Part shown: positions 3,652 through 17,761 of the stretch, piece after piece | How the letters are laid out: each line of letters opens with the position of its first letter | How positions within the stretch are numbered: the first letter of the stretch is position 1 | Source of the DNA: an uncultured Bacteroidales bacterium | GTDB taxonomy: Bacteria; Bacteroidota; Bacteroidia; Bacteroidales; F082 | NCBI GenBank assembly: GCA_900317055.1 | Contig: ONFF01000006.1 | Span: 62,001-126,000, forward strand | DNA length: 64,000 nucleotides | Direction: 5' to 3' | Program-made: the position numbers and the translations under genes | The notes under the pieces: generated by a model | The model's database searches: none | The model's input: the letters and a program-made list of their open reading frames with translations, nothing else | What the model was told of the DNA's origin: nothing

Positions 3652-3708
3652 TCACTCCAAATCTCCTAAGACCATCTCATGATAATCGCGGATGGAGTCC
3701 TTGTTCAT
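3652..3708 (-). pseudogene. 18-codon gene-tail remnant, right copy
   Basis: A short minus-strand frame, MNKDSIRDYHEMVLGDLE, overlaps the stop of the upstream membrane-protein gene by one base (TGATG). It could in principle be translated by re-initiation. Its sequence repeats the tail at 2074-2196, so it is more likely the 3' remnant of a once longer gene. Confidence 0.45.
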
Positions 3709-4016
3709 CACAACATATCAACAATCGTAATGATTCCCGTGATGGCAAACGGTATCAAGAAAAACTGGAGAGCGTAGCTGAACGCATTCCAGACCCGATT
3801 GTCAAACAATTCGAGTTTCGACTTTACCCAAAACCAGCGTGGCGGCACTTCCTGCCCCCATGCCGACCAACCTACAATAAGCCCAAGCACGGCCAAAACC
3901 GCTCCGACAATGAATTCATATCCTTCAAACCCATCGCCGAAAAGCACTAGTGCCCCAAGGACGGTTAGTATCGGCGATACCTTTTGAAAAAACCATAATA
4001 ATGCTGTTATTAACAT
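3708..4016 (-). CDS. Small membrane protein, unrecognised
   Basis: A 102-aa frame with about three hydrophobic segments: residues 1-25 (MLITALLWFFQKVSPILTVL and following), 32-52 (EFIVGAVLAVLGLIVGWSAW) and 80-100 (FFLIPFAITGIITIVDML). No signal peptide cleavage site and no recognised domain. It lies about 100 bp downstream of the metallopeptidase gene on the same strand, so it may be the last gene of that operon. The stop overlaps the gene-tail remnant by one base. The composition looks like a real inner-membrane protein, but nothing indicates its role. Confidence 0.6.
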   Translation of the reverse strand: MLITALLWFFQKVSPILTVLGALVLFGDGFEGYEFIVGAVLAVLGLIVGWSAWGQEVPPRWFWVKSKLELFDNRVWNAFSYALQFFLIPFAITGIITIVDML

Positions 4017-4117: not shown

Positions 4118-4858
4118 TTACAGACTTTCCAAACAGTCATTTTTAATTACACTTCTGACAAATTCCAGGCAGTTCCTTAACTCATCTATTACACAACATT
4201 CCTCTGGCTTGTGGGCATTGTAATAACCGCAACTAATGTTGCAGCAGGGCACAGCAAGACCTCGACGCTTCAACGCAACGACATCAGTGGTGCCACCTGC
4301 CACAGGAATGTAGCCATATTGCTGCCTTAATTTCAACGGAATAAAACCATCATCGCAAAGGCGCAAATCCACTTTCTTGCTATAAGTCACAATGTCGCTA
4401 TTGCCTTTACGGTCGCATTGTATCACATATTTTACATCTTCAAAGAAAGCAAGATCACATGCTTTCGAGCCTCGGCATCCCTCAAAATCACCATCCTTTT
4501 CTTCTTGCACAAACAAAACTACCTTAAGCGTGATTTCTGTTCGTAACAGATTCAGTGCAATCCAAACACCGTTTTTATCGTCGGCACCAATGCCAACACA
4601 CTTTCCCTCTTCATCAGTCGCAAATATCACTCCATCCTCCTCATGCAAGATCCTTTTCTGTGGCCGATGAACTTCATCCAAATGTGCAGCCACACAAGGA
4701 TAAACCTTTGTTTTTCCCTTGACAATGAAAAGATTGCCAATAGCATCCTCTTCGATGGACAAATCCAATCCGTCGAGTTGGGTCAAAACAAAGCGTTTGA
4801 TTTCTTCCTCACGACCTGATTTGCTGTTAATAAGGTATAGTTGCTTGAGTAGCTGCAT
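4118..4858 (-). CDS. Zinc aminopeptidase-like protein (clan MH, M20/M28/M42 type)
   Basis: A compact 246-aa protein with the metal-ligand layout of co-catalytic zinc peptidases: AAHLDEVH (H59, D61), GIGADDKNGVWIAL (D93 or D94), LFVQEE (general base and ligand, E119/E120), IQCDRKG (D149) and YYNAHKPEE (H216). The segment AGGTTDVVAL recalls the GGTDA motif of M42 enzymes. It probably removes N-terminal residues from short peptides in the cytoplasm. It has no separate dimerisation domain, so it is smaller than PepT or M42 proteins. The start at 4858 was preferred because it lies four bases after the ion-channel stop, and longer starts would lie inside that gene. It is the third gene of the pcp operon. 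The exact subfamily is uncertain. Confidence 0.75.
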   Translation of the reverse strand: MQLLKQLYLINSKSGREEEIKRFVLTQLDGLDLSIEEDAIGNLFIVKGKTKVYPCVAAHLDEVHRPQKRILHEEDGVIFATDEEGKCVGIGADDKNGVWIALNLLRTEITLKVVLFVQEEKDGDFEGCRGSKACDLAFFEDVKYVIQCDRKGNSDIVTYSKKVDLRLCDDGFIPLKLRQQYGYIPVAGGTTDVVALKRRGLAVPCCNISCGYYNAHKPEECCVIDELRNCLEFVRSVIKNDCLESL

Positions 4859-4862
4859 AATG

Positions 4863-6623
4863 CTATGATTGTTTGTCCTCTTCCATTTTTGGCAATCCGT
4901 AGAGTTCGCGCCAATAATTTGATTCAGATGGCCGAACATTGTATTCTTCTGTATGCAAACCTTTGATTTTCTTTGTTTCAAGATTTCGGTTAAGCACATC
5001 GGCAATGTTGTAGATTGCGGAATGCACTTCCTTTTTGAACACCATAAGTTTATACGACACCGTAATCAGCAACACATTGGCGTTTGTTCTTGTTTTAATG
5101 TACCTCGCAATGTTATCCTTGTTTAGTTTTGGTTGTACCTGATGGGCATCTGTTGTTAGTTGCGCCTTTTCTGACAAGGTATTACTAAAATCGTCGAATA
5201 GTTGCTTTAATAACTTTTTGTCATGCGTTATACATTCCTCAAAATCGAAAGATGTCTCACCTTTTTCTCCGCCAAACTCAAAATGAAAATCGGTTATGTT
5301 CTTAACTACTTGTTCTCCGGCAATAACAATTATCCAATCGTTTTCACTTCTGTCGTTTGTAATGGCATCAATAAACTGTTGGAATACACTATTATTCTTG
5401 GTCTCTTCAACAATTGTGTAAAAATTGAATCGTTTCTCCCTGTCCAAGCCGTTCTGACGAGAATAAAACTCATTGGCTACATAGTTAAATCCACCTAATT
5501 GCGCAATATGCCAGTCGAAAAAACTCAACCCGTTGTCTGCTTTACCTATCGGGTTAACTATGGTAACACTTGAATTTCGGTCAATATGGCATCCATATTT
5601 TGTATTTGCAACAAATTGATTCACTACAAGCATATCGGTTTTCGGCCCTTCCGATATGGCATCGCTAAGATTCTTGATTCGAAGCCCTTTTGATGCAGCT
5701 ACCGACTTTACGATTTCATCTTCTGTAAGCCCCATGTCTAACTTCAGATTCCCAAGACTGACATTTTTAGCTGGCCAAAATATGCCTTCACGTTTTATGT
5801 TTTTTAAGAGCATAAATTCATTTATTGACTCAGCATTATCTTTTAGCGCTTTCGCGTCACGTTCAGCCTCCATCACTTCGGTGAATCCCGATCCAATAAG
5901 ACCAGCAGGCACCGCAAAAATGGCAATTCCAAGGACGCCTACGATGATAGCCAAGACGTTTCCCCATGCCGTCACCAAAGGATAATCCGCAATTTTACCT
6001 GGGTCGCCAAGGTATTTAGCAAAAGACCAAACCAAAGTTTTCCAACCGTTTTCACACAATTCAGGTTGAGCGGCATGTTCTGCAAAATACAGGAAAAACG
6101 ACAGAATCACTGTTAAGATGGTTAGGAAGGCTAGACTCACAGTCAATTCATGCTTTTTGGACGAGATGGCATCGCCCAAAATCCTGAACGACTTCATGTA
6201 ACGGAAAATGCGCAATAGGCGGAAAACCCTCAAGATCTTCAGCGCGGCATACGGCATCGGCATAAAGAAGTGTAAATAAAAAGAATATGTTGATAGTATA
6301 TCAATCAACCCGTAAAATGTGAAACAATAACACAACCTTCCTTTAAAGCCTTTGAATCTTGCATCTTGAAGGTCGGCAGTCCATATTCTTAAAGTGACCT
6401 CTATGGTAAAGAAAATGGTGGTAAACCAATCGATAAACTTCAAGATGTGCCCATATTTTTCAACGATGTTTTCGTAAGTCGACAGGAACACTTCAACGGT
6501 GCTGACAACAATCAGGCCGATGATAACATAATCGACAATGTTTTGCCATTGGCGTGTGCGAAAGTTGTCGTCAAATACCCGCGCCAGTTCTTTTTTAATT
6601 TGTTGAAAATTCATAGCGGTCAT
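4863..6623 (-). CDS. Voltage-gated-channel-like ion transporter with large cytoplasmic C-terminus
   Basis: A 586-aa membrane protein. The first 250 residues hold six hydrophobic segments of an ion-transport domain. An S4-like helix (ALKILRVFRLLRIFRYMKSF, about 127-146) has arginines at every third or fourth position. The pore loop reads WSFAKYLGDPGKIADYP instead of a TVGYGD potassium filter, followed by a pore helix ending in AVPAGLIGSGF. The remaining 330 residues are soluble and contain ITVSYKLMVFKKE-like strands but no domain I recognise. The ATG at 6623 overlaps the pcp stop (ATGA), so it is translationally coupled to pcp and followed four bases later by the peptidase gene. Ion selectivity cannot be predicted. 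Confidence 0.8.
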   Translation of the reverse strand: MTAMNFQQIKKELARVFDDNFRTRQWQNIVDYVIIGLIVVSTVEVFLSTYENIVEKYGHILKFIDWFTTIFFTIEVTLRIWTADLQDARFKGFKGRLCYCFTFYGLIDILSTYSFYLHFFMPMPYAALKILRVFRLLRIFRYMKSFRILGDAISSKKHELTVSLAFLTILTVILSFFLYFAEHAAQPELCENGWKTLVWSFAKYLGDPGKIADYPLVTAWGNVLAIIVGVLGIAIFAVPAGLIGSGFTEVMEAERDAKALKDNAESINEFMLLKNIKREGIFWPAKNVSLGNLKLDMGLTEDEIVKSVAASKGLRIKNLSDAISEGPKTDMLVVNQFVANTKYGCHIDRNSSVTIVNPIGKADNGLSFFDWHIAQLGGFNYVANEFYSRQNGLDREKRFNFYTIVEETKNNSVFQQFIDAITNDRSENDWIIVIAGEQVVKNITDFHFEFGGEKGETSFDFEECITHDKKLLKQLFDDFSNTLSEKAQLTTDAHQVQPKLNKDNIARYIKTRTNANVLLITVSYKLMVFKKEVHSAIYNIADVLNRNLETKKIKGLHTEEYNVRPSESNYWRELYGLPKMEEDKQS

Positions 6624-7240
6624 ACAATCAGATTTTGGGTTGCCAGGGTATGTATCACGGCTTTCAAAGCCTGTACTACAATTTCAGTTGACATAGAAGG
6701 TTGCTTGTTTTTTCCCACGACTTGGCAAGGCAAATAAGGGACATGGATAAATCCTGCTTGCATGTTTGGATATTTGCTATATACCAAATGCATGGCAGTA
6801 TAAAAAACGCTATTGCAAACATAAAGTCCAGCACTATTGGAGATAGTTGCAGGAATACCCTCATCTTGAACAGCTTCCACCAGCCGTTTCAGCGGCAAGT
6901 TGCTGAAGTAAGCATTCGGGGCATCTGCTTGCAATTGACACTCCTGAGGCTGATAGCCGTCATTATCGGGCTTTTTGCTGTCAGCTATGTTGATGGCAAC
7001 ACGCTCCACTTCGATTGCACATCGTCCTCCAGCTTGACCGATGCTCAGCACTACATCGGGACGATAATCGTCAACGGCCTGCTCCAGCATCATCATTGCT
7101 TTTTGAAACGAGACTGGCAGACATACTTTCAAAACCTCCACATCTTCCAAGAGTTCAGGAAACGCTTTTACCGCTTCCCATGAGGGATTCACTTCTTCTT
7201 GACCAAAAGGCTCAAAACCGGTAAGTAAGACCTTCATCAT
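6620..7240 (-). CDS. pcp: Pyroglutamyl-peptidase I
   Basis: A cysteine peptidase of family C15 that removes N-terminal pyroglutamate from peptides in the cytoplasm. The 206-aa length is usual. The start TGFEPFG is the family signature, and the triad is visible: E79 in GGRCAIEVERVAIN, C142 in SNSAGLYVCNSVFY and H166 in GFIHVPYLP. It is the first gene of an operon with the ion channel (4-bp overlap) and a zinc peptidase. Two ATG codons in tandem (7240 and 7237) make the exact start ambiguous by one residue. Confidence 0.93.
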   Translation of the reverse strand: MMKVLLTGFEPFGQEEVNPSWEAVKAFPELLEDVEVLKVCLPVSFQKAMMMLEQAVDDYRPDVVLSIGQAGGRCAIEVERVAINIADSKKPDNDGYQPQECQLQADAPNAYFSNLPLKRLVEAVQDEGIPATISNSAGLYVCNSVFYTAMHLVYSKYPNMQAGFIHVPYLPCQVVGKNKQPSMSTEIVVQALKAVIHTLATQNLIV

Positions 7241-7301: not shown

Positions 7302-7334
7302 TACAAAAGAGGGCAGGCACGGTGCCTACCCTCC
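7302..7334 (-). terminator. Rho-independent terminator of the 7.3-13.8 kb gene block
   Basis: On the minus strand an 11-bp stem with one mismatch (AGGGTAGGCAC paired with GTGCCTGCCCT around a one-base centre, 7310-7332) is followed by TTTTGT. It lies just beyond the stop of the last gene of the block. Confidence 0.7.
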
Positions 7335-7350
7335 TCACAGAAAAAAAGGG

Positions 7351-7653
7351 TTATTTTCCCGCTGCGCTCAAGGTGATGCCGTTGTCGGCGAGGGCCGAAT
7401 CGTCCTTTGTGGCGACCTGCACCTTAATGCCGAACACTTCCTTGATCTTGTCCTCGAAGTTGCCGACCTTCATGTTGCCGACCACTTTCACCTCGCCGCC
7501 TTTGGCGCCTTCGGCACGGATGGATGCCAAAGTAGCGTTGTCGTCAGCAAAGCCTGGACCTTTGTAAACTCTCAATGTCGCACCGAAAGCCTCCTTGAAC
7601 TGGGCTTTCAACGTCTTGACCTTCATGCGGCCATCAATATTGAAATCTGCCAT
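7351..7653 (-). CDS. Two-repeat small-domain protein A (unrecognised paralogous family)
   Basis: A 100-aa protein made of two copies of a roughly 50-residue unit. Copy 1 reads FNIDGRMKVKTLKAQF then AFGATLRVYKG then ADDNATLASIR. Copy 2 reads EVKVVGNMKVGNFEDKI then VFGIKVQVATKD then ADNGITLSAAG. The pattern is strand, loop, helix ending in FG, strand, then D-x-x-[A/I]-TL. The same unit recurs in four other proteins of this block (7714-8391, 11246-11614, 12803-13375, 13392-13760). No signal peptide or catalytic motif is visible, so it is probably a cytoplasmic binding or scaffold module. The order of elements is reminiscent of a beta-grasp fold, but this is only an inference. Last gene of the block, followed by a terminator. 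Confidence 0.8.
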   Translation of the reverse strand: MADFNIDGRMKVKTLKAQFKEAFGATLRVYKGPGFADDNATLASIRAEGAKGGEVKVVGNMKVGNFEDKIKEVFGIKVQVATKDDSALADNGITLSAAGK

Positions 7654-7673
7654 AATAAAAAAGTGTTTAATGT

Positions 7674-7716
7674 TTGCCTACTCTTTATAGGATTTTCGGC
7701 GATGCTCCTATTATTA
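7674..7716. repeat. Leader repeat upstream of protein A
   Basis: About 42 bp repeated upstream of protein B at 8408-8449, with roughly three differences. It sits directly before the start of A and abuts the stop of B. It was presumably copied with the gene when A and B duplicated, or is a conserved regulatory leader. Confidence 0.65.
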
Positions 7717-8391
7717 TTGTTCTATTTCTTCGACAGTATATCCCAAAGCTTTCACTTGCTCCATAAAGGGGGTGAAATAGCGTTCGGGCCAATAATTCCA
7801 GACCACCACTTTGCCATTTTTCAAAGGAATTACCTCCTCTTCCTTCATGTAATAGTTTCCTCCTGGAGTGCCTTGGCTATCAACGATGGTCAAGGCCATC
7901 TCAGGCGTGGCCACAATCATATTCGTTGCCGTATTGAATGCCCTTTGCAGAGTCACCAAGGCCGCGTTGGGGTTTTGCTCTGCATAGTATTTTACTATTG
8001 CATGGCACAAACGTCCTTTCAACTTGTAGGTTTGTCCGTTGAAGACAAATGCCTTCTTTACTTTCTTCTCGGTATTGGGATTAAGCGATGCATTTCTCAC
8101 CTCACAGAGTTTCAAATCATTATCGACAAGGAAGCTGTTGTCGGGCGAAGCCACTTGAACCTCGATGCCATACAAGGCCATCATGAACTCCTCGAAATCG
8201 CCAACAATGTCGTTGTCGCCACAGTCCAGTTCGCCGCCTATGGCGCCCTCGCCACGGATAGCAGCCAGCGTGGCATTGTCGTCTGCAAAATGGTGGTGAT
8301 AATACACCCTAAGCACTGAACCGAAGTTGTTCATAAACTGTTCCTTCAGCGTTTTGACCTTCATTTGGCCCGTAATCTTAAATGATGCCAT
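7714..8391 (-). CDS. Two-repeat small-domain protein B fused to a restriction-associated C-terminal domain
   Basis: A 225-aa protein. Residues 1-100 repeat the unit of protein A closely (FKITGQMKVKTLKEQF, then ADDNATLAAIRGEGAIGG) with a diverged second copy (YGIEVQVASPDN). Residues about 115-225 form a different domain: FVFNGQTYKLKGRLCHAIVK, YYAEQNPNAALVTLQRAF, YYMKEEEVIPLKNGKVVVWN, then FTPFMEQVKALGYTVEEIE. I recall this pattern (KGRLVxAVVKxYVexNP... LGYxIE) as a small domain attached to, or encoded beside, restriction-type proteins; that is memory, not a search. It lies between the ferredoxin fusion gene and protein A, with the repeated leader on both sides. Confidence 0.78.
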   Translation of the reverse strand: MASFKITGQMKVKTLKEQFMNNFGSVLRVYYHHHFADDNATLAAIRGEGAIGGELDCGDNDIVGDFEEFMMALYGIEVQVASPDNSFLVDNDLKLCEVRNASLNPNTEKKVKKAFVFNGQTYKLKGRLCHAIVKYYAEQNPNAALVTLQRAFNTATNMIVATPEMALTIVDSQGTPGGNYYMKEEEVIPLKNGKVVVWNYWPERYFTPFMEQVKALGYTVEEIEQ

Positions 8392-8407
8392 AATTATTTC
8401 TTTTTTG

Positions 8408-8449
8408 TTGCCTACTCTTTACAGAATTTTCGGCGATGCTCCTATTATT
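8408..8449. repeat. Leader repeat upstream of protein B
   Basis: Second copy of the element at 7674-7716, lying 16 bp before the start codon of protein B. The shared core reads TTCGGCGATGCTCCTATTAT on the plus strand. Confidence 0.65.
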
Positions 8450-8463
8450 TTCTTACCAAGTAC

Positions 8464-9738
8464 TTACTTACCAAACAAACGAGCAAAAAAGCCTTTTTTC
8501 TTTTCTTCGATTTTCTCGTCTGGTTTTTCCTTCATGCGTCTTTGGATTCTCGAATCCAATATCATCTTGAACTCATCACGGCTCAAACCGATGGAATCCG
8601 CTTTTTTCAACAAAATTGCACGCTCCTCCTCCGTGACAACGAAGTCCTCAAGAGCCATGTCAATAAGACTGTTAATCACCGATATGTCATCTGGTGATGG
8701 TTTTTTAGTTGTAGGTCTTGGTTCAGACCCGACTTTATAAATTGCTCCAAACTTACAATTAATATCACACACACCACAACCATTACACTTTGCAGGATCA
8801 ATTATCAATGAAGGTAGTTTATGACCTATTGCGATATAATTGGTCTTAGAAATGGCATTAACAGTACAGTTCTTGGCACACTTACCGCAGCCGATACATT
8901 TCTCCTTATCAATTACATAGTTTGTTTCTTTGATATTATTAGATTGAGAAGGGGAATCGACCAAACTACCCAATGATGGGTCTTCAATAATGTTTTTAAA
9001 TTTGCCCCATAATGCATGATTTTTGTAAACATTCAATGCTCCTTTAGGAACAATAAGATGATCATCTTTTGATAAATTAACTACTTTTTCCACTACTGGA
9101 GGGGTTATATTTTGCATTCTCAAAATGACCGTTCCACTTTCTCCATCAATTCTGGAAATGGTAGAAACAGAGGGTGGAATTGTGATTTGACAGTTTCTCA
9201 ATATCGACAGCGATGTAATTGAAGACGGGATAGTGATATTTTTGCAACCACGAAGAGTACCCAATGATTTCACAGATGATGGGATGATGATATTTTCACA
9301 ACCACTTAACTCCTCTATTGATGTCACTGAAGATGGAATAATAATATCCTTGAAATCCAACAATGTTCCTATCGATATCACGGAAGATGGGATAATAATA
9401 TTCTCGCAACTCCACAATGTTCCTATCGATGTCACGGAAGAAGGTATAGTAATATTCTTGCAGTAGTACAATTGACCTATTGATGTTACGGAAGATGGAA
9501 TAATAATATTCTCACAATAAAACAATTGTCTTATCGATGTCACAGATGACGGAATTGTGATATTAACACAATGAAGCAATTCTCCAATAGCGGTTAATCT
9601 ATACTTTTTTCCACCTATTTCAACAATTTCTTGAAGAGGACCACTAGTAGTAGCCTTCTCTTCTCTGTTTACTATTACGGTATCCTTGCCACTGATTTCA
9701 TAGGTATAGCCCTTCTTAAGCACTATCTTGTTTTCCAT
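8464..9738 (-). CDS. Leucine-rich-repeat / two-cluster ferredoxin / TerB-like fusion protein
   Basis: A 424-aa protein with an unusual domain chain. Residues 57-199 hold eight 18-residue BspA-type repeats (consensus CENIIIPSSVTSIGTL), closed by the BspA-like cap VPKGALNVYKNHALWGKFKN (230-248). Residues 281-291 (CIGCGKCAKNC) and 318-328 (CNGCGVCDINC) are two CxxCxxCxxxC motifs, each able to bind a 4Fe-4S cluster. Residues 353-400 (ALEDFVVTEEERAILLKKA, then GLSRDEFKMILDSRI) resemble a TerB-like or SHOCT-type helical module, and the tail ends in KKKGFFARLFGK. There is no signal peptide, unlike typical surface BspA proteins, so it is predicted cytoplasmic. It could couple electron transfer or redox sensing to a protein-recognition surface. 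Domain calls are clear; the role is unknown. Confidence 0.82.
   Translation of the reverse strand: MENKIVLKKGYTYEISGKDTVIVNREEKATTSGPLQEIVEIGGKKYRLTAIGELLHCVNITIPSSVTSIRQLFYCENIIIPSSVTSIGQLYYCKNITIPSSVTSIGTLWSCENIIIPSSVISIGTLLDFKDIIIPSSVTSIEELSGCENIIIPSSVKSLGTLRGCKNITIPSSITSLSILRNCQITIPPSVSTISRIDGESGTVILRMQNITPPVVEKVVNLSKDDHLIVPKGALNVYKNHALWGKFKNIIEDPSLGSLVDSPSQSNNIKETNYVIDKEKCIGCGKCAKNCTVNAISKTNYIAIGHKLPSLIIDPAKCNGCGVCDINCKFGAIYKVGSEPRPTTKKPSPDDISVINSLIDMALEDFVVTEEERAILLKKADSIGLSRDEFKMILDSRIQRRMKEKPDEKIEEKKKGFFARLFGK
9142..9570. repeat. 54-bp tandem repeats encoding the leucine-rich region
   Basis: Eight consecutive units of about 54 bp encode the 18-residue repeats of the fusion protein. 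DNA similarity between units is high, so unit number could vary by slippage. Confidence 0.8.
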
Positions 9739-9764
9739 AAGTTTAGATTTTTCTCTATATTTCT

Positions 9765-10298
9765 TTAAATAACTGACAACAAAGCGGTTAACGAATAGTC
9801 TATTACACCTTTCCCAATTGTCTTTAGCGCCTCAAAAAGTGTTTTGTTCTTTGCTTTTTTAATAATGTCCTTGTCAATAAACAAATCATTGAGAACACCA
9901 ATAAAGTCTTTTGCATTAACACTTACGATTTCCGAATTAAAGGAACGGTCGGAAAATAACCCCTTGTCTTTCAATTTTCCATCTAGATAGCCACGCAACA
10001 TTTGGTTTTCCACAATGAAAACCAACTTTTTACCATCCGCCTTGAATTGGGCTTTTGCAAGAACTTCTTCCAAACTCTTTTTGAAAATCTCTTCAGTATT
10101 TTGTCCGTATTTCAATTCTGCTTCATATCTTAATCTTTTGACTTTTGTTTCTGGGATTCTCAATTCAAGACTTATTGTGCGATTAGACTTTGTAGTCCAG
10201 CCAGCATTAAGAAGTTCATTAAAAATAGCGACTTCAAAATCATTCTTATTCATTGAGCCGAAGCCCTTTTTTAAGTATTTGTCAATTAGTTCATTCAT
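9765..10298 (-). CDS. Hypothetical 177-aa protein of the small-domain block
   Basis: A soluble, Lys-rich, mostly helical protein. It begins MNELIDKYLKKGFGSMNKND and has RIPETKVKRLRYEAELKYG near residues 47-66, which could be a small helix-turn-helix. The C-terminal third (KNKTLFEALKTIGKGVIDYS and beyond) is amphipathic to hydrophobic. I do not recognise the family with confidence. It sits 27 bp from each neighbour between the GIY-YIG gene and the ferredoxin fusion, and is presumably co-transcribed with both. A DNA-binding or effector role would be a guess. Confidence 0.65.
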   Translation of the reverse strand: MNELIDKYLKKGFGSMNKNDFEVAIFNELLNAGWTTKSNRTISLELRIPETKVKRLRYEAELKYGQNTEEIFKKSLEEVLAKAQFKADGKKLVFIVENQMLRGYLDGKLKDKGLFSDRSFNSEIVSVNAKDFIGVLNDLFIDKDIIKKAKNKTLFEALKTIGKGVIDYSLTALLSVI

Positions 10299-10325
10299 TT
10301 TTTCGATTTTTTCAGCTAGATATTC

Positions 10326-11249
10326 TCAATTCATATTATACCCAAACAATCGTGTACAAAGTTTTTCTTTATACAGGTTCTCCCTATGGACAGCGTAATC
10401 ATCGGTCACGTCCAACGGGAAGGTTTCGAGGATGAACCATTGGAAATGGTCCCAAGCGTAGTCTTTATTCTTGCTTAGCAACTCAACCAGCATGTCGTTG
10501 TTGCCATGTCCGTTGGTTTCGGCATACACTTTCCAGCGGCCCCAGATGCCTTCGTCACCATAGGCTGATCCAACATAGAGCTTGCCGTTGCTTTGGTCGG
10601 CAATGCCATAGATGCCATTCACCGCCTTCAGCTTGTCGCGCCACTCCACGTTGTCGGTCTCGATGAGGTTCTTCAACTCCTTGAAAGAGAGCAGTACGTC
10701 ATTATACGAGGTGAAAGGAATCATCATGCGAATAATGCCTTCGTCGATGCGAAGCACTTTCTTGTCGCCTCTGAACCATTGCATCCAACGTAGGGCCGCC
10801 ACGCCACCCCAATCGACAAGCACACGACCACTATACTCCTTGAAAACTTTTAGTTCAACCACTTTCACAAAGACTCTATTCCTGAACGACTTTTTGTCAT
10901 CGGTCGGAACGGCGATCTTCTTGTCCAGGCCAAGGATCTTGTACACACCAACGAAACGGGAATACTTTCCGTCGACTACAAAGACAACAACATATGCCGC
11001 CTGCATCAGCAGTTTTGCATTTTCGGGCGTGTGCTCCCTGACGTAATCCTCAAACAAGCCATCATCCTGATGGTCGAGGAATAGGTCGAACAGGTTCTTG
11101 TCCCTGTGCATCTTTCCTTCGATGGTGATGGCCATGTTTTTCAAGCGCATCAGTTGCACCTTGCCTTCAGCCAAGGCTTGGTCGAATCGGACATCTTCGC
11201 CACTGAGCAACTCAATCAAAGATGTTGTATTTAGCTTTTCTCCTATCAT
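10326..11249 (-). CDS. GIY-YIG nuclease domain protein
   Basis: A 307-aa protein whose C-terminal third is a GIY-YIG nuclease: NGIYGI (211-216), KLYVGSAYG (223-231), R239 in WGRW, HRENLYKEKL with E290 as the likely metal-binding Glu, and N305 in the terminal YNMN. The first 200 residues (starting MIGEKLNTTSLIELLSGEDV) form a separate domain I cannot name, possibly DNA recognition, as in stand-alone GIY-YIG restriction enzymes. All family residues are present, so a divalent-metal-dependent DNA cut is plausible. The start at 11249 overlaps the stop of small-domain protein C by four bases, implying coupled expression. No partner methyltransferase is visible in the block. Confidence 0.82.
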   Translation of the reverse strand: MIGEKLNTTSLIELLSGEDVRFDQALAEGKVQLMRLKNMAITIEGKMHRDKNLFDLFLDHQDDGLFEDYVREHTPENAKLLMQAAYVVVFVVDGKYSRFVGVYKILGLDKKIAVPTDDKKSFRNRVFVKVVELKVFKEYSGRVLVDWGGVAALRWMQWFRGDKKVLRIDEGIIRMMIPFTSYNDVLLSFKELKNLIETDNVEWRDKLKAVNGIYGIADQSNGKLYVGSAYGDEGIWGRWKVYAETNGHGNNDMLVELLSKNKDYAWDHFQWFILETFPLDVTDDYAVHRENLYKEKLCTRLFGYNMN

Positions 11250-11614
11250 TTTTCGTACTCGCCTCTTGCGGCCTGCCCAATGGTTATCTCATTAGGAACG
11301 CAAATTTTTCCAGCCTTGTCCTTGATTTGAACCTTCACGCCAAAGTTGGTGTCAAACATCTTCTCAGCATCACCAACTTTTGTACTGCCTTTGATTTTGA
11401 TGCCTTCTGCTTTGGCGTTAACATCTTTGGTGGTTTTCTTGTTCAAGGCGGCCAAAGTCAAGTCACCTTCAGCGATGATGTTGCCTTTGTAGAACACCAA
11501 TTGCAGGTCAAATGCATCCAAGAACTCCTTGGAGAGGGTCTTGAATTTCTTCTGCGGAGCCACAGTGAATTCCGCTTTATTGAATCTGTCTTTCAGGTTG
11601 TTGATAAGTCCCAT
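11246..11614 (-). CDS. Two-repeat small-domain protein C
   Basis: A 122-aa member of the block's paralogous family. The N-terminus MGLINNLKDRFNKAEFTV precedes unit 1 (KKFKTLSKEFLDAFDLQLVF, then AEGDLTLAALN) and unit 2 (IKIKGSTKVGDAEKMFDTNF, then GVKVQIKDKAG, PNEITIGQAA). It differs from protein D (13392-13760) at only seven of 122 residues, and the flanking bases also match, so this is a recent duplication two kilobases apart. It is probably cytoplasmic with no visible active site. It overlaps the GIY-YIG gene start. Confidence 0.8.
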   Translation of the reverse strand: MGLINNLKDRFNKAEFTVAPQKKFKTLSKEFLDAFDLQLVFYKGNIIAEGDLTLAALNKKTTKDVNAKAEGIKIKGSTKVGDAEKMFDTNFGVKVQIKDKAGKICVPNEITIGQAARGEYEK

Positions 11615-11644
11615 AATATTAAGTATTTAAGTGAAACAATAATT

Positions 11645-11905
11645 CTATTTTTTCTTTGCTCTTTCCCTTTCGCGCGCCAAAGTTTCTTTGCAACGCTCTA
11701 TTTCCCGTTTTAGACTTTCAATCTTGCGGTCATGACCGGTGGCACGGTCAATTTTCGACTTGCGATAGCTGGCCTTGCTGCTTGGCGATGTAGCTCTTTT
11801 TATGAGGTCGGCATAATATGCGTTGTCTTTTTTCTTTGCCTCGCGCTCTTTAGCTACATCGGCCCGCAGGTCGATGAGACGTTTACGGTAGTATTCTACG
11901 CTCAT
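11645..11905 (-). CDS. Small basic coiled-coil protein
   Basis: An 86-aa, highly charged protein predicted to be nearly all helix (MSVEYYRKRLIDLRADVAK at the start, RKIESLKREIERCKETLARE near the end). The middle TSPSSKASYRKSKIDRATG may be a hinge. No membrane segment or enzyme motif. Its stop is 30 bp before protein C and its start is 4 bp after the 67-aa gene. A structural or nucleic-acid-binding role fits the charge but cannot be shown. Confidence 0.65.
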   Translation of the reverse strand: MSVEYYRKRLIDLRADVAKEREAKKKDNAYYADLIKRATSPSSKASYRKSKIDRATGHDRKIESLKREIERCKETLARERERAKKK

Positions 11906-11909
11906 GGTG

Positions 11910-12113
11910 TTATTCTTTTGAGTTTAAGAAATCGATGAGCTTGCTGCCGAACTGACGGGTGTTCCATTCGGGGTCGTACTCGAATCCCTCTTTCTCTGCC
12001 ACCTCACGGAGAGCGCCTTTAACATTGTCGTAAACACGGTAAACTTCGATACTACCGCTTTCGAGTACACCAAGCATGTACTCGCCACTGATTGCTGATT
12101 TTTTGTAAGCCAT
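11910..12113 (-). CDS. Small hypothetical protein, 67 aa
   Basis: A 67-aa acidic-to-neutral protein beginning MAYKKSAISGEYMLGVLESG, with SIEVYRVYDNVKGALREVAE and a terminal helix. The strand-then-helix layout is globular-looking, but I do not recognise the family. It is packed between the PD-(D/E)XK-like gene (33 bp) and the coiled-coil gene (4 bp), and is translated in the same direction as the block. Confidence 0.6.
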   Translation of the reverse strand: MAYKKSAISGEYMLGVLESGSIEVYRVYDNVKGALREVAEKEGFEYDPEWNTRQFGSKLIDFLNSKE

Positions 12114-12146
12114 TGTTTGTTGTTTTTAGAATTATTAATTAATTGA

Positions 12147-12806
12147 TCATATTGTCACTATACAATAGTGGAACTCCACGCTCTCGTAGGTGTTAGTATT
12201 CCAATGGATAGTGTATTCGTGCTCGAGGTCAAAGTCGGGATGCGTCTTGGCGCAGGTACTTTCAGGATTTTGCCAATGTTTGGCCTTTCCATGACGACCC
12301 TCTTCCATGCAGAATAGTCGATTGTTGGAGGCTTCTCGGCTGGGGCTGACATACTGCTTGTCGTTGGTGACAAATACCGCCAAGCCGTTTTTTACAGCGT
12401 CAAAACGGTTACGTACCAGTTCCAGTCGGCGTACGTCTTTCCAGAAGTCGTACATGCCCAAATCCTGTGCACCATGATTTTTCAACACATCCACGGCTTC
12501 GTTGAGCTGTTCGCCAAAACGCAGTAGCCGTTTGCTGTGTTTTTTGGTTTTGTATTTCAATTCTACTGGCAGGAACTCTTGATTCATACGTAGCAGGATG
12601 TCCAGTTTTAACTCGTTCTTCCAGATGTAGTTATCCAACTCCTCGAAAGGCACATAATATTCTACATCCACATCATCGTAGTGTCCACTCCCGATGAGAT
12701 ACAACGCCAAATGCATCTGCAAATCGCGCTCATTGAACAGCAGTTTCCCGTCCTCACGGTCGAGGTATTGCTGTATATCGGCTTTTGCTTGTTCGATTAA
12801 CGTCAT
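12147..12806 (-). CDS. PD-(D/E)XK-like nuclease-fold protein
   Basis: A 219-aa protein with a restriction-endonuclease-like core: E26 in LLFNERDLQ, D69 in ELKLDILLRM and E82/K84 in FLPVELKYKTKK. This is the D...ExK arrangement of the fold. The remainder (FGEQLNEAVDVLKNHGAQD, LAVFVTNDKQY) fits the helical and strand decorations of this superfamily. Its ATG at 12806 overlaps the stop of protein E (ATGA), so it is translationally coupled to the histone-tailed paralogue. The upstream in-frame start at 12923 lies inside that gene and was rejected. Superfamily assignment is from motif spacing only. Confidence 0.72.
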   Translation of the reverse strand: MTLIEQAKADIQQYLDREDGKLLFNERDLQMHLALYLIGSGHYDDVDVEYYVPFEELDNYIWKNELKLDILLRMNQEFLPVELKYKTKKHSKRLLRFGEQLNEAVDVLKNHGAQDLGMYDFWKDVRRLELVRNRFDAVKNGLAVFVTNDKQYVSPSREASNNRLFCMEEGRHGKAKHWQNPESTCAKTHPDFDLEHEYTIHWNTNTYESVEFHYCIVTI

Positions 12807-13375
12807 TTCCACAAGCCTTTTTGGCAGCCGTCGGCTTCGCACTTCTTGTTGAAGGCGGCAAGAGTCATCTCGTCGGCGGAACCACTTGTATAGTAACGGT
12901 GGCCATCCTTCTCTGTGTAGCATACTTGGACATAGAGGCCAAAGACGGTATCGAATTCCTTCTCCAGCGACTTGATTTTCTTGTTGCCGCTGATGGAGAT
13001 GTCACCACCCGAGTCGGCACGGCGTACCGAAGCAAGGGTCTTATCGGGATCAATACCGCTGATGCTCTCTCCTTTAGCCACAGCTTGACGGGCATAACTA
13101 TAGCATATCTTCAGGCGCAGATAAGGGAACTGCTTGTTGAACTCCTTCATCAGGGTGCCAATCTTTTTGTTGCCTGTCACTGACAGCTCGACGGCAGTCT
13201 TCAAAGGAGCGGCTTTCTTCGTAGCAGGTTTTGCTGCAGGCTTGGCCGTTGTGGCTTTCTTTACGGGAGCGGCTTTCTTGGCCGTTGTGGTGGTCTTCTT
13301 GGCGGCGGGTTTGGCCGTCGTTGTCTTCTTTGCTGCAGTCTTTGTTGTTGTTGCCTTTTTGGTTGTTGTTGCCAT
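12803..13375 (-). CDS. Two-repeat small-domain protein E with histone H1-like N-terminal tail
   Basis: A 190-aa protein. Residues 1 to about 62 are a low-complexity Lys/Ala/Thr/Pro tail (repeats such as TTKKATTTKTAAKK and AKPAAKKTTT) like histone H1 or AlgP tails, which bind DNA through charge. Residues about 65-190 hold two copies of the block's unit: ELSVTGNKKIGTLMKEFNKQ with DPDKTLASVR, and DISISGNKKIKSLEKEFDTV with SADEMTLAAFN. The ATG at 13375 was preferred over the one at 13426 because the latter lies within protein D. The tail suggests that at least this member acts on the nucleoid or on nucleic acid. Its stop overlaps the nuclease-like gene. Confidence 0.78.
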   Translation of the reverse strand: MATTTKKATTTKTAAKKTTTAKPAAKKTTTTAKKAAPVKKATTAKPAAKPATKKAAPLKTAVELSVTGNKKIGTLMKEFNKQFPYLRLKICYSYARQAVAKGESISGIDPDKTLASVRRADSGGDISISGNKKIKSLEKEFDTVFGLYVQVCYTEKDGHRYYTSGSADEMTLAAFNKKCEADGCQKGLWK

Positions 13376-13391
13376 AACTTTATTGTTTAAA

Positions 13392-13760
13392 CTATCGGTC
13401 ATACTCGCCTCTTGCGGCCTGCCCAATGGTTATCTCATTAGGAACGCAAATTTTTCCAGCCTTGTCCTTGATTTGCACCTTTACGCCAAAGTTGGTGTCA
13501 AACATCTTCTCAGCATCGCCAACTTTTGTGCTGCCTTTGATTTTGATACCGTCTGCTTTGGCATTAACATCTTTGGTGGTTTTCTTGTTCAAGGCAGCCA
13601 AAGTCAAGTCGCCTTCAGCGATGACAGAGCCTTTGTAGAACACCAATTGCAGGTCAAACGCATCCAAAAACTCCTTGGAGAGGGTCTTGAGTTTCTTCTG
13701 CGGAGCCACGGTGAATTCTGCCTTGTTGAATTTGTCTTTCAAATTGTTAATCAGTCCCAT
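13392..13760 (-). CDS. Two-repeat small-domain protein D (first gene of the block)
   Basis: A 122-aa near-identical copy of protein C (about 94% identical residues), ending GEYDR instead of GEYEK. It has the same two units and the same upstream AT-rich leader (AAGTATTTAA on the plus strand). It is the 5'-most gene of the minus-strand block and so probably follows the block's promoter, for which no clean TAnnTTTG element was seen. The gap to protein E is 16 bp. Confidence 0.8.
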   Translation of the reverse strand: MGLINNLKDKFNKAEFTVAPQKKLKTLSKEFLDAFDLQLVFYKGSVIAEGDLTLAALNKKTTKDVNAKADGIKIKGSTKVGDAEKMFDTNFGVKVQIKDKAGKICVPNEITIGQAARGEYDR

Positions 13761-13894
13761 GATTTTAAGTATTTAAATGAAACAATAATTCTTGTTATAT
13801 TTCCCACCTGCAAAGAAACGCACTTCCACACAATCTTTTCAGGTTCATTTTGGTTCATATTTGTTCGTTTCTTGTCAGCACAAAAAAAGCGTGA

Positions 13895-13902
13895 TACTTT
13901 TG
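13895..13902 (+). promoter_or_regulatory. Promoter for a candidate non-coding RNA
   Basis: TACTTTTG matches TAnnTTTG, and a TTG at 13872-13874 lies 20 bp upstream, giving a complete Bacteroidetes -33/-7 pair. No reading frame follows on the plus strand; the long hairpin at 13909 begins about seven bases later. Confidence 0.6.
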
Positions 13903-13908
13903 CATCCG

Positions 13909-14024
13909 CTTATCGAGGTGTTTGGCATACCTAAAGAAACCGGATGTTGAAAAGCACACGCCATTCGTGTAACTTTCAGCATCATTCTGGTTTCTTTATC
14001 TCAAATCGCCAAACTTTCGATAAG
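13909..14024 (+). ncRNA. Candidate structured RNA: long imperfect hairpin
   Basis: The 116 bases fold back on themselves almost along their whole length. The outer stem pairs CTTATCGA..TGTTTGGC (13909-13926) with GCCAAAC..TCGATAAG (14008-14024). After an internal loop, AAAGAAACC..ATG pairs with CAT..GGTTTCTTT. The inner stem pairs TGAAA and ACACG with CGTGT and TTTCA around a short CCATT loop. A good promoter precedes it, and no protein is encoded. It could be a regulatory RNA with a 6S-like rod shape, or a MITE-like inverted repeat. It ends before an unexplained stretch that includes the 33-bp iterons. The structure is clear; expression is inferred. Confidence 0.5.
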
Positions 14025-14187
14025 ACAGAATATTGCTAATCGTCTGATTATATGAACTATATTGCTTATTATTGCGCCTTGCGGCGGGTTATTCCATAGG
14101 CTTTTCTTTTAGTTTTACGCTCCAAAATTAGGGATTTTTTGGGAAAAGCAAAAGAAAATTGAGGATTTTGCGGCAAAGGATGGTATT

Positions 14188-15891: not shown

Positions 15892-17055
15892 TCATTTCGC
15901 CTGAACCCGGTCGAACATCATAAAAGCGATCTGGTTATACTTATCGTTATGCACTTTTTCCCATGCACTTCTGAACTCATCGCTCGTCTTGCGGTCGTCA
16001 AGCAACGGCGACTGGATGTTTTGCAACAATGAACGACAGATCTTCATCCTGTTAGTAAAATCATTGTTGACACCGACAACATCAGCCTCATATTTTCCAT
16101 TGTTTATGTCGTCGATGACAGGCTGATACATGCTGTCGATGATACGCTCTGCCCTGCCTAGCAACGCCATGAACTCGTCGGAATACCCATTGGGATTACG
16201 TTCCACGATAATGGTGTCAATCACATGCTGCACCTCGGTCCTGACAGTTTCCTTGGGTCTCAAAAACAAAGGGATAACCGCCAACGCCACTCCTATCAAT
16301 ATGGGGAGCATCCAAAGCCAGCGCGAATGCCGTTCAAAAGCCTTCCTTAATGCTTCAGCATTGGCATAACGGCGGTCACGGTCAGCACGGGAACACTTGG
16401 CAGCGATGTGTTTGTAGCGACGCGGAAAGATTTCCTTCAACAACAATCCAAAAGCATAGATGTCGGCGCGGCCATCTATCTTCACATCCGGCTCCTTTTG
16501 CTCGGGAGCCATATATTTCAAGGTGCCGGCAGGTTGCTTCAACACGGCATAGTCATCGGCATCGGAAAGACCGAAATCGATGATTTTCACATTATTGCCG
16601 TTTCTTGTCACCAAAATGTTGCTCGGCTTCAAGTCGCGGTGGATGATCTGCTTGCCATGGATGTAAACGAGAACCTCCACCAATTGTTCCACCACTTTTT
16701 TTCGAGCAGCTACGGAGGGTTTACCTTCAAGAAATTCATCCAAGGTCACGCCGTCCACATACTCCATCACGATGCAAGGCCCAACCTCGGGGTTCATTTC
16801 CTTGGCGAGTATCTTCACGATGTTGGGATGGTCGAGCTGGGTGCCTAAGTCAAACTCCTTCTTCAGCAACTCGATATAAGCCTGCTGGTCGCGATATTCG
16901 GGTTTCAAGCCTTTCAAGATGAACCACTTGCCTTGGCGCCGCACCTTCACCACTTGGTTGAAACCACTCGACGACGAGGACTCGTACACCGTCAAGGCAT
17001 CCGTCTCGGTGATGAAACTCCCATTGATGATTCCCGATGTGCTGCTGTCGTCCAT
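15892..17055 (-). CDS. Serine/threonine protein kinase with one membrane helix
   Basis: A 387-aa Hanks-type kinase. The Gly-loop region SSSSSGFNQVVKVRR is loose, but the other elements are intact: K48 in WFILKGL, E67, HRDLKPSN (139-146), DFG (160-162), and APEQ (183-186) with the downstream GRADIYAFG. A single helix (about 247-266, LWMLPILIGVALAVIPLFLR) leads to a periplasmic 120-residue domain rich in helices. That topology suggests an envelope sensor kinase acting on cytoplasmic proteins. The start at 17055 is placed by a TATTTTTG element at 17073-17080. It is divergent from a putative regulator and upstream of small secreted proteins, so the three may belong together. Confidence 0.88.
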   Translation of the reverse strand: MDDSSTSGIINGSFITETDALTVYESSSSSGFNQVVKVRRQGKWFILKGLKPEYRDQQAYIELLKKEFDLGTQLDHPNIVKILAKEMNPEVGPCIVMEYVDGVTLDEFLEGKPSVAARKKVVEQLVEVLVYIHGKQIIHRDLKPSNILVTRNGNNVKIIDFGLSDADDYAVLKQPAGTLKYMAPEQKEPDVKIDGRADIYAFGLLLKEIFPRRYKHIAAKCSRADRDRRYANAEALRKAFERHSRWLWMLPILIGVALAVIPLFLRPKETVRTEVQHVIDTIIVERNPNGYSDEFMALLGRAERIIDSMYQPVIDDINNGKYEADVVGVNNDFTNRMKICRSLLQNIQSPLLDDRKTSDEFRSAWEKVHNDKYNQIAFMMFDRVQAK

Positions 17056-17072
17056 GGCCAATATTTTTTCGG

Positions 17073-17080
17073 CAAAAATA
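17073..17080 (-). promoter_or_regulatory. Bacteroidetes -7 promoter element of the kinase gene
   Basis: TATTTTTG on the minus strand, 17 bases before the ATG at 17055. It excludes the longer in-frame start at 17316. Confidence 0.6.
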
Positions 17081-17173
17081 AGCGAAAACGCATTGACGCG
17101 GTCAAAATGAACCAAAAAGAATTTCGCTATTTTGGAAAGAAGTCGCATTTTTGCAGCATAAAAACAAATCGCC

Positions 17174-17761
17174 ATGCAGAAGACCAGTCCCGAAATCTCC
17201 GAACTCAAGCAGCAAATCGAGGAAAGCGTAGGACGCAAGATGAAGACCTCGAATGATTTCACTTTTCTCAGTGGTGCCATTTGGGAGCGCACGCACGAGA
17301 ACATCAGTACCTCCACGCTGAAACGTCTTTGGGGCTATGTCGACGGTCCCGACACCACCCGCAACAGCACCCTTGAAATCTTGTCGAAATTCTTAGGGTT
17401 TAAGGATTGGGACGGTTTTTTGGAGCATATCGGCCAAGACAACGGATCGGATCGCGTGACCAAACAGCACATCAAGACGGATGACTTGAAGGTCGGCGAC
17501 CTTATCTCCGTGTCGTGGAAACCCAATCGTCGATGCATGTTCCGCTATCTCGGCGACTACCGTTTCATCGTGGAGCAAGCCGAAAACTCCAAGTTAAAGG
17601 TGGGCAACACCTTTCGCTGCGGTCTGTTCATCCTCGGCGAGCCACTCTACCTGAACGACCTTGTGCAAGGCGACAATCCGCCCGTAGCCTTTGTGGTGGG
17701 CAACAAGGATGGATTGTGCGAATTGGGAATCAACACTCCAAAGCCCCTATCAAATCCGTAG
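17174..17761 (+). CDS. Putative HTH-type regulator divergent from the kinase
   Basis: A 195-aa cytoplasmic protein. The N-terminal 90 residues ([40 protein letters not shown], then [18 protein letters not shown]) look like a Cro/XRE-type helical DNA-binding domain seen in Bacteroidetes regulators. A beta-rich C-terminal part follows ([40 protein letters not shown]). The family is recalled only loosely. A near-consensus GCATTTTTGCAG lies 24 bases upstream. Its 3' end overlaps the convergent pyrD gene by 32 bp. It may control the kinase operon, by inference from the divergent arrangement. Confidence 0.65.

Follow-up and report, generated by a model that had tools for sequence, protein, structure and literature searches.

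Uzume (UzuA) is a single-gene system with a published anti-phage role, and CBASS and Bil are bacterial systems in which ubiquitin-like conjugation operates in defence. PvuRts1I prefers 5hmC DNA, and in the GIY-YIG fold generally an arginine and a glutamate are the catalytic residues. PD-T4-3 is described, in the available part of PMC12923530, under the name CMoRE: a type IV restriction enzyme that acts on 5hmC/5ghmC DNA, is active as a single component and carries a GIYxY-YIG motif. In conflict systems with effector-associated domains, as the available part of Kaur et al. (2020, PMC7159879) presents them, small domains are common to core and effectors and the effectors can be swapped; the available part of PMC8195603 gives KAP as an alternative NTPase.

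Here we analyse a block of genes at 7351-13760 of a 64,000-nucleotide stretch (the window; contig ONFF01000006.1, positions 62,001 to 126,000) from an uncultured Bacteroidales bacterium of gut type. Five of its proteins, here termed REP, share a small repeated unit and fall into subtypes A, B and C. The block was compared with other REP loci in a set of 74, nearly all from Bacteroidota; since these loci are phylogenetically related, counts made over them are not independent. The window encodes a UzuA homologue and, whereas Uzume is known as a single gene, this one lies inside a multi-gene locus. As in the systems of PMC7159879, so far as the available part describes them, small domains are found in both core and putative effector proteins, and FGS-type domains are present in two REP loci (L038, L047). 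The MoxR-vWA, VMAP or GTPase cores given there are, in contrast, absent from the window proteins scanned, and the adaptors in the available part of PMC8195603 are alpha-helical, whereas REP is modelled as alpha/beta. With belief and doubt about evenly balanced, we read the block as the window's version of a modular Bacteroidota conflict locus, most likely anti-phage; REP, together with the small modules o67 and M4, would be the non-covalent adaptors of its exchangeable effectors.

Gene content of the locus

The preliminary description of eleven closely spaced genes on one strand holds: an ORF check returned eleven ORFs at the same coordinates, all on the minus strand, with gaps of -4 to 72 bases when likely starts are taken. 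At the upstream end is a REP protein of subtype C (13392..13760, 122 aa, two units; subtype given by the best phmmer seed), a near-duplicate of a second copy at 11246..11614 recognised by ORF and pairwise comparison. Next is REP-B (12803..13375; likely ATG near 13375, ORF open to 13426), whose lysine/alanine/threonine-rich N-terminal tail weakly resembles histone-H1-like profiles (E 4e-5, far under cut-off). It is followed by a candidate PD-(D/E)XK-type nuclease (12147..12806, likely ATG near 12806), by o67 (11910..12113), a small module elsewhere fused to KAP, LRR and REP proteins, and by o86 (11645..11905), which is basic, probably coiled-coil as judged by eye, and has relatives in 46 of the 74 loci. 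Beyond the second REP-C copy lie the UzuA homologue (10326..11249) and o177 (9765..10298), a protein predicted from its ORF with no relative in the remaining 73 REP loci at the threshold used. The protein at 8464..9738 combines LRR_5-like repeats, a dicluster ferredoxin and a weak TerB-like C-terminus (Fer4 E 3.7e-12; LRR_5 2.2e-4 and TerB 0.22, both under cut-off).

The last two genes encode REP-A proteins. The first (7714..8391) ends in the module M4: phmmer matches the C-terminal part to the C-termini of KAP proteins, and M4 also terminates KAP proteins elsewhere. A homologue in locus L047 is tagged as REP plus M4; the window protein itself falls under the M4 tagging threshold. The second (7351..7653, 100 aa, C-terminus GK) is preceded by a DUF805b cis-regulatory RNA hairpin at 7675..7710 on the same strand (RF02914, 38.5 bits against a gathering score of 35.6) and followed by a hairpin at 7306..7336, likewise on the minus strand, which bears out the terminator proposed for the end of the block. 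It has 14 pairs, its 3' arm runs into TTTTG, and its folding energy of -23.6 kcal/mol (z -4.7) was matched by none of 200 shuffles; a terminator pattern scanner did not return it. Hairpins at the equivalent place in L036, L038 and L041 have z of -4.8, -2.6 and -1.7.

Eleven genes do lie between the limits first drawn, but the functional locus probably extends past 7351, through an ion channel, to about 3708. The channel (4863..6623, Ion_trans PF00520, E 1.2e-16), also on the minus strand, has a peptidase-fold-like C-terminal domain. Around it on that strand are a pyroglutamyl peptidase of uncertain membership (6620..7240, Peptidase_C15 E 5.7e-73, in 15 of 74 loci), an M20/M42-type peptidase whose membership is doubtful (4118..4858, Peptidase_M20 E 1.8e-6, in 3 of 74) and C5mem (3708..4016), a hydrophobic, probably membrane protein of 102 aa without a Pfam match, with relatives in 30 of 74 loci, mapped in 28. 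That the terminator separates REP-A from the channel counts against a single system in the window.

The REP unit and its possible likeness to ubiquitin

A unit of about 50 residues occurs ten times in the five REP proteins (genes at 7351, 7714, 11246, 12803 and 13392); because sequence identity between the proteins of 11246 and 13392 is 94%, eight copies are distinct, the number originally counted. Each of the 45 unit pairs was compared with 200 shuffles. All 20 pairings of first with first and second with second units scored z 5.2 to 51.5, while the 25 mixed pairings divide into nine above z 5, three at z 3-5 and thirteen below 3; both units within one protein score below 3 in three of the five (7714, 11246, 13392). 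When homologues are included, the profiles of unit 1 and unit 2 match each other with a probability of 97.4 and E 1.2e-11, and by this sequence measure the two are related. The preliminary description held that a known family for the repeat, with an unrelated function, would speak against it; Pfam, NCBIfam, PHROG and PADLOC hold no family fitting the four REP proteins scanned. Further REP genes were sought in the 3.5 Mb assembly, and all five matches lie inside the block.

The AlphaFold model of REP-A (7351..7653) shows strand-helix-strand-short helix, twice. A beta-grasp or ubiquitin relationship had been suggested, and part of it stands. The best 50 of 640 Foldseek matches to the PDB (E up to 10) are ubiquitin-family chains throughout, and polyubiquitin heads the PDB sequence matches of the unit-2 profile with strand-helix register agreeing (E 0.01 when the ubiquitin repeats are added together; no single stretch is significant). 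The best Foldseek E is nonetheless 8.1e-3, with nothing below 0.001, and the modelled unit lacks the complete beta-beta-alpha-beta-beta grasp; the unit-1 profile did not find ubiquitin among PDB sequences. Tandem units weakly resemble di-ubiquitin and ISG15 (di-ubiquitin alignments at rmsd about 14-18 A), and among the 12 single-domain matches listed four superpose at 2.1-2.9 A across 41-48 columns; the other eight give 5.0-6.5 A. On the model, REP would mostly comprise two copies of a strand-helix-strand unit weakly resembling half of the ubiquitin fold.

This hint of a ubiquitin-like fold, in which the tandem units may weakly recall the CBASS and Bil systems, together with the GK terminus of many REP-A proteins and the peptidase genes nearby in the window, might indicate that REPs are covalent modifiers, part of a stripped conjugation system using enzymes from elsewhere in the cell. 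We hold that to be very improbable. E1 (ThiF), E2 and JAB were absent from the ten block proteins scanned (all but the near-duplicate encoded at 13392), from the further window genes scanned and from the 28 unclassified families inside arrays that, unlike the 67 at array edges, were scanned as a set; that the block has no activating or conjugating enzyme had been noted from the start. No window REP ends in the Gly-Gly of a conjugated modifier: the C-termini are AAGK, GEYEK, GEYDR and KGLWK, the 7714 fusion ending in its C-terminal module, and in the model a short helix is the last element of unit 2.

Nucleases, channels and NTPases beside REP

The protein at 10326..11249 is, by homology, a full-length member of the described UzuA family: it matches PADLOC profile PDLC03973 at E 1.4e-65, with residues 26-307 of 307 aligned to profile positions 14-278 of 278, and the GIY-YIG residues Y214, Y225, G227, R238 and E275 are invariant in eight sequences, the window's included. 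The PD-(D/E)XK candidate at 12147..12806 matches no family in the profile databases scanned, and its D108, E121 and K123 are invariant in 16 sequences, again including the window's. Other loci hold other nucleases. PD-T4-3 is tagged in six of the 74. Homologues in L073, L088 and L131 match at PADLOC E 1.9e-49, 5e-39 and 3.6e-44, with Y16, Y18, Y30, G32, R38 and E87 (L073 numbering) invariant in six sequences, which fits the motif reported for CMoRE in the available part of PMC12923530; in L073 a region like its C-terminus is also fused to LRR-like repeats recognised by eye. PvuRts1I-like proteins with SRA occur in two (L063 and L078). PD-T4-3 had no match in the window's genome, nor PvuRts1I-like proteins among the window proteins scanned.

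The three REP subtypes are accompanied by varying cargo: UzuA, PD-T4-3/CMoRE, PvuRts1I-like or PD-(D/E)XK nucleases, KAP NTPases and ion channels. A slot similar to that of the window's channel holds a KAP NTPase or short channel in other loci; KAP is tagged in 15 of 74, that of L041 being related to PifA and QatA profiles. A scored nuclease is present in 32 loci, a channel or KAP in 46, and at least one effector in 52. The remaining 22 carry no scored effector, some being on short contigs, yet L079-L087 look like solitary REP genes; these loci count against a conflict role, as does the weak fold similarity. The preliminary description had ventured an undescribed conflict or nucleic-acid-associated system, to be abandoned if REP never accompanied nucleases. 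They do co-occur, recurrently and with some related to anti-phage enzymes, which makes a conflict function plausible; the GIY-YIG gene, however, belongs to a described family. The preliminary description had not foreseen that the ion channel/KAP slot seems part of the locus or that cargo is exchanged between genomes.

REP might instead mark a defence hot spot whose neighbours are independent single-gene systems with no functional linkage, which we regard as rather improbable. The window, L036 and L038 have both flanks in common (77-87% DNA identity) and L047 shares the downstream flank (93-96% to L038), yet array content differs among them, so that one site carries different cargo. Across 173 family genomes, UzuA lies within 10 kb of REP in 9 of 21 cases and PD-T4-3 in 1 of 8; with 12 and 7 matches elsewhere, neither requires REP, a pattern that also weighs against the conflict reading, and PD-T4-3 is a single-component enzyme in the available part of PMC12923530. 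Against mere co-residence, all nine full-length channel relatives (E<1e-100), spread over nine genomes, fall within that distance; a further genome, the REP-positive G086, has a C-domain-only match (E 9.5e-30) on a separate contig, away from REP. The corresponding figures for PD-(D/E)XK and KAP are 5 of 6 and 11 of 47. Distant lineages, moreover, repeat the association, L088 with a channel, A-B-C and PD-T4-3, L078 and L089 with KAP and A-B-C. Finally, small domains are fused across core and cargo: REP, o67 or M4 is joined to KAP, OmpA, LRR and TerB-like proteins (M4+OmpA in 29 ORFs, M4+KAP in 4, o67+KAP in 2, REP+o67 in 4, others single). M4 itself matches only the PADLOC candidate PDC-S57 (E 2e-7).

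The strongest competitor, unlikely in our estimate though less so than a hot spot, places REP in a cell-envelope or energy-stress system of channels, OmpA-type and TerB-like proteins and peptidases, the nucleases hitch-hiking at a recombination hot spot. OmpA-type proteins occur in 30 of 74 loci and TerB-like in 14; in the same genome the DUF805b RNA lies upstream of REP genes and also before genes whose small products have a signal-like N-terminus; and most of eight distant Bacteroidota REP genes (L123-L130) adjoin, by eye, genes of stress type (Usp-, CBS-, PEP-synthase-, Hsp20- or microaerobic oxidase-like), which likewise tells against a conflict locus. Hitch-hiking sits poorly with the specificity of the PD-(D/E)XK and channel cargo within 10 kb of REP, with two unrelated nucleases of modification-dependent type in distant lineages, and with adaptor modules fused to KAP NTPases. 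Searches of phages (two queries) and plasmids (one query) returned no REP, and in IMG/VR it is on one contig only; both results count against a conflict role.

A proposed mechanism and its implications

We favor the modular conflict locus because relatives of known anti-phage nucleases turn up repeatedly among the cargo, because 52 of the 74 loci have a scored effector, because in the 173 family genomes the full-length channel is confined to the vicinity of REP, because one site carries different cargo, because small domains are common to several protein types, because distant lineages keep the pattern of channel or KAP beside A-B-C, and because the modelled fold, weakly, recalls ubiquitin. 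Half-ubiquitin-like small proteins alongside varying DNA-cutting enzymes and membrane channels point to what is likely a new modular anti-virus system. Its core would be REP-A, REP-B and REP-C with o86; around it would stand exchangeable DNA nucleases, which in the window are the UzuA-type GIY-YIG and the PD-(D/E)XK protein, together with an effector on the membrane side: the ion channel in the window, and in other loci a shorter channel or KAP NTPase. REP, o67 and M4 would bring sensors, nucleases and membrane effector together non-covalently, and the lysine-rich REP-B tail would keep the assembly on DNA. On infection foreign DNA would be cut, with the channel, once opened, or KAP as a membrane-damaging second line.

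A bolder version is possible, though we hold it only tentatively: REP may be an unrecognised class of non-conjugating half-ubiquitin adaptors, A, B and C assembling at the membrane as well as on DNA and accepting interchangeable plug-ins, which may include nucleases, modification-sensing regions joined to LRR-like repeats, KAP NTPases and voltage-gated-type channels. One locus could then re-equip itself against changing phages, those with modified cytosine included, a bacterial parallel to the ubiquitin-fold scaffolds of animal innate immunity without a conjugation cascade.

If the conflict-locus reading is right, there would exist a family of small ubiquitin-like proteins that is linked to defence and has no conjugation enzymes, as well as a type of locus whose adaptors are fixed while nuclease and membrane effectors are swapped. 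Voltage-gated-type channels would be tied to phage defence, 5hmC-type restriction enzymes would be seen built into larger assemblies, and several unannotated Bacteroidota protein families would gain testable roles.

Organisation of the array and the fold of its REP units

The window corresponds to positions 62001-126000 of contig C9 in an assembly of 3.5 Mb. All eleven genes of the block at 7351-13760 lie on the minus strand, as first described, with a terminator hairpin 3′ of the last REP gene. Five of the genes (at 7351, 7714, 11246, 12803 and 13392) encode REP proteins, with two units in each. The likely true starts of the 12803 and 12147 genes are near 13375 and 12806, respectively, both shorter than the open reading frame; intergenic gaps accordingly range from -4 to 72 bases. 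The proteins encoded at 11246 and 13392 share 94% identity, and the DNA similarity extends from approximately 28 bases 5′ of the gene to near the gene end, a pattern such as would be left by single-gene duplication.

The preliminary description held that these proteins are built from one repeated unit. Comparison of units at the same position (first with first, second with second) placed 20 of 20 pairs above shuffled sequences (z of 5.2 to 51.5); for cross pairs between first and second units z is below 3 in 13 of 25. Profiles incorporating homologues (37 and 36) are related with a probability of 97.4. This led us to conclude that the claim of a single homologous unit is correct, although the repeat is in part visible only by way of homologues or by reading of the pattern.

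Four of the five REPs in the window (P0011, the near-duplicate at 13392, was left out) gave no meaningful match to a known family in Pfam, NCBIfam, PHROGs or PADLOC, and no description of a REP-like family, or of this combination of genes, was found in the titles and abstract openings of the open-licence papers listed. A beta-grasp fold of the ubiquitin kind had been suggested from the order of elements, and a structural search gives this partial backing. The AlphaFold model of REP-A, built from 46 sequences (pLDDT 85, pTM 0.69), consists of strand, helix, strand and short helix, two times over. The best 50 of 640 Foldseek rows against the PDB contain nothing but ubiquitin-like chains, among them ubiquitin, di-ubiquitin and ISG15, but the top E value is only 8.1e-3 and no row falls below 0.001. 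Against PDB sequences, the whole-protein profile reaches ubiquitin chains at E values of 0.1 or more, interspersed with other proteins; the unit-2 profile has polyubiquitin as its top match (a sum over ubiquitin repeats, E 0.01), and the strand and the helix align in the register predicted; the unit-1 profile finds no ubiquitin match. On these models and alignments we consider it reasonably probable that the REP unit is a ubiquitin-like half-grasp. As the preliminary description had it, activating or conjugating enzymes (E1, E2) are absent from the scanned window proteins and the 28 unclassified array families; these contain no JAB domain either.

In the viral structure library BFVD the first two ranks are W6B1I5, a 96-residue protein of Erwinia phage Ea35-70 (E 0.025), and the unnamed A0A1B2IAQ8 (E 0.029). 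Both have an overall fold similar to that of REP (TM about 0.5, rmsd about 7 Å), a likeness between models that could be due to chance; lower-ranked matches include viral ubiquitins and pestivirus polyprotein fragments.

Distribution of REP genes

Related records are metagenome-derived Bacteroidota, most of them from ruminant guts according to their titles. Within the family, REP was found in 23 of the 173 genomes, and a single genus out of 16 accounts for all 23. Across the phylum it was found in 11 of 395 sampled genomes, the window's own counted. A contig scan with just two peptide patterns yielded 71 loci, which together with the window, L122 and L131 make up the 74 mapped loci; L001-L035 were kept out of the counts because their genomes overlap, and the 74 contain near-duplicates (e.g., L043 and L044). 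Assigned by best seed, two or three REP subtypes occur in 52 of the 74 loci, and A, B and C together in 22. Among flavobacterial or marine loci, all three subtypes are found in L078, L088, L089 and L099, and A with C in L090.

REP genes also occur outside such arrays. Loci L079-L087 hold solitary genes of about 200 codons, with no scored effector in the stretch examined; the one that was domain-mapped (L085) encodes two tandem REP pairs. Distant REP genes in other Bacteroidota (L123-L130) are single except for two in L124, and most of them have neighbors that, judged by eye, resemble universal stress, CBS, PEP-synthase, Hsp20 or microaerobic oxidase genes.

A plasmid origin was rejected on the basis of one REP-B query that found no plasmid match, and a phage origin because neither one REP-B query nor P0001 (the REP-A at 7351, at E 10) matched a phage. 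In IMG/VR, P0001 has no relative and P0006 (the REP-C at 11246) has one. A 4.2 kb IMG/VR contig (L131) carries a REP-C gene, a PD-T4-3-like gene and a phage-type integrase.

Differing cargo at a shared chromosomal site

A family search identifies the GIY-YIG protein encoded at 10326-11249 as UzuA, the nuclease of Uzume, which has a published experimental basis. The product of 12147-12806 is a candidate PD-(D/E)XK nuclease: the assignment has no family match behind it and is drawn from the conservation of the catalytic residues D108, E121 and K123, invariant in 16 sequences. The 8464 protein contains a dicluster ferredoxin (Fer4, 3.7e-12), together with LRR_5-like and weak TerB-like parts that both score under curated cut-offs. 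Downstream of the terminator are a pyroglutamyl peptidase, an M20/M42-type peptidase, a 102-aa hydrophobic protein and an Ion_trans channel (4863-6623) with a 324-residue C-terminal domain. An AAA/DUF4143 ATPase gene at 2326-3603 adjoins the array, and its relatives were tagged in 14 of the 74 loci.

The model of the channel C-terminal domain (pLDDT 89, pTM 0.89) resembles poly-gamma-glutamate hydrolase (3a9l, best E 7.4e-5) and M14 carboxypeptidases; its alignment, run against PDB sequences, found nothing. An active peptidase was rejected, since no histidine is invariant, or nearly so, across 21 aligned sequences; for the same reason the domain may bind a ligand rather than act as an enzyme.

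Cargo differs among the 74 loci, its domain names being taken from scans of representatives. Membrane-slot genes comprise the C-domain channel (26), KAP NTPase (15) and a short Ion_trans channel (12); one type occurs alone in 39 loci, two in 7 and none in 28. At least one scored nuclease type is present in 32 loci, the tags being PD-(D/E)XK (16), UzuA (8), PD-T4-3 (6), GIY_YIG_2 (4), PvuRts1I-like (2) and a second PD-(D/E)XK-like type (2); PvuRts1I prefers 5hmC. Counting nucleases and membrane-slot genes together, 52 loci carry at least one, and the 22 with neither include short contigs and the solitary genes of L079-L087.

Small domains are shared among these proteins. Fusions of M4 involve OmpA-type proteins (29 ORFs), KAP (4) and, in L047, REP; phmmer places a tail of this kind on the 7714 protein of the window as well. 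The partners of o67 are KAP (2), LRR together with an 8464-type C-terminal segment (1), and a helical protein (1). REP is joined to o67 (4), to a TerB-like protein (1) and to the 8464 C-terminal segment (1, and again within one o67 fusion); by eye, the match to that segment is confined to its TerB-like part. FGE-sulfatase domains in L047 bear a lysine-rich tail like that of REP-B. The L073 protein at 11950-13464 of that locus combines LRR-like repeats, recognized by eye, with an Ala/Lys/Glu-rich stretch and a CMoRE-type C-terminal region; it adjoins a complete CMoRE-like nuclease gene, to whose C-terminal part it aligns (residues 161-246 to 36-120, 33% identity, E 5e-10). The CMoRE C-terminal domain is described as modification-sensing (PMC12923530).

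The window, L036 and L038 have both flanks in common (77-87% DNA identity), and L047, whose contig starts at the array, shares the downstream flank (93-96% to L038); between the flanks, the gene content of these four arrays differs. Two genomes with no REP match (G129 and G100) have the same upstream flank followed by other genes, their downstream flank being unmatched within the stretches compared. These comparisons point to turnover of cargo at one chromosomal site.

Across the 173 family genomes, repeat and nuclease genes occur together in part of the cases: 9 of 21 UzuA genes lie within 10 kb of REP, and the remainder lie away from it. The corresponding numbers are 9 of 9 for the full-length channel, 5 of 6 for PD-(D/E)XK, 11 of 47 for KAP and 1 of 8 for PD-T4-3. 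Other channel matches give 0 of 11, including a C-domain-only match in a REP-positive genome (G086); the split (full length being E<1e-100) was chosen after the channel search results were known. At least one of these cargo genes lies within 10 kb in 18 of the 23 REP genomes. Given an assumed mean genome of 2.8 Mb and uncorrected relatedness, we use the counts alone.

Regulatory elements and a proposed role for REP

The Rfam DUF805b cis-regulatory hairpin lies directly 5′ of a REP-A gene (7675-7710), and a second copy, under the gathering score, directly 5′ of the other (8409-8444). The window and 14 loci yielded 13 matches, every one ending 15-24 bases 5′ of a REP gene (subtype A in 12, subtype B in L047); six of the 15 sources (L048, L050, L056, L073, L088 and L090) had none. 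The window's genome has five matches, of which two fall inside the REP array and three outside it (one under the gathering score in each group), which rules out an element specific to REP.

Just upstream of the array, at about 13870-14100 on the minus strand, is a candidate structured RNA with a single copy in the genome and no Rfam family at the gathering score. It was aligned from 14 loci, two of them without REP; 50 pairs are predicted, 8 with compensatory changes, and by eye it terminates in a hairpin bearing a T run.

Further upstream are a protein kinase (15892-17316) and a paired regulator (about 17174-17761). Relatives of the kinase at E 1e-40 (paralogues counted) occur in 51 of 173 genomes against 23 for REP, the pair is retained at the site in L147 and L148 with no REP following, and contig C11 of the window's genome holds a second pair; on these grounds we set both genes aside, for this genus, as parts of the system. 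A regulatory link to REP is nonetheless possible, since the two genes are mutually adjacent beside REP in 27 of the 28 loci with a kinase match. After the second pair, within C11 1679-10846 (L156), come genes for small proteins whose N-termini look signal-like; DUF805b-type RNA matches lie 5′ of three of them.

The analysis establishes homologies, the conservation of catalytic residues, the sharing of small domains and the differences in cargo. Two observations argue most strongly against an adaptor role for REP in defense: within the family, most UzuA and PD-T4-3 genes are not close to REP, and distant REP genes occur near stress-type genes. We nevertheless favor REP as a non-covalent adaptor within an anti-phage locus, whose workings would entail complex formation, a trigger, tethering to DNA, opening of the channel and, ultimately, protection.
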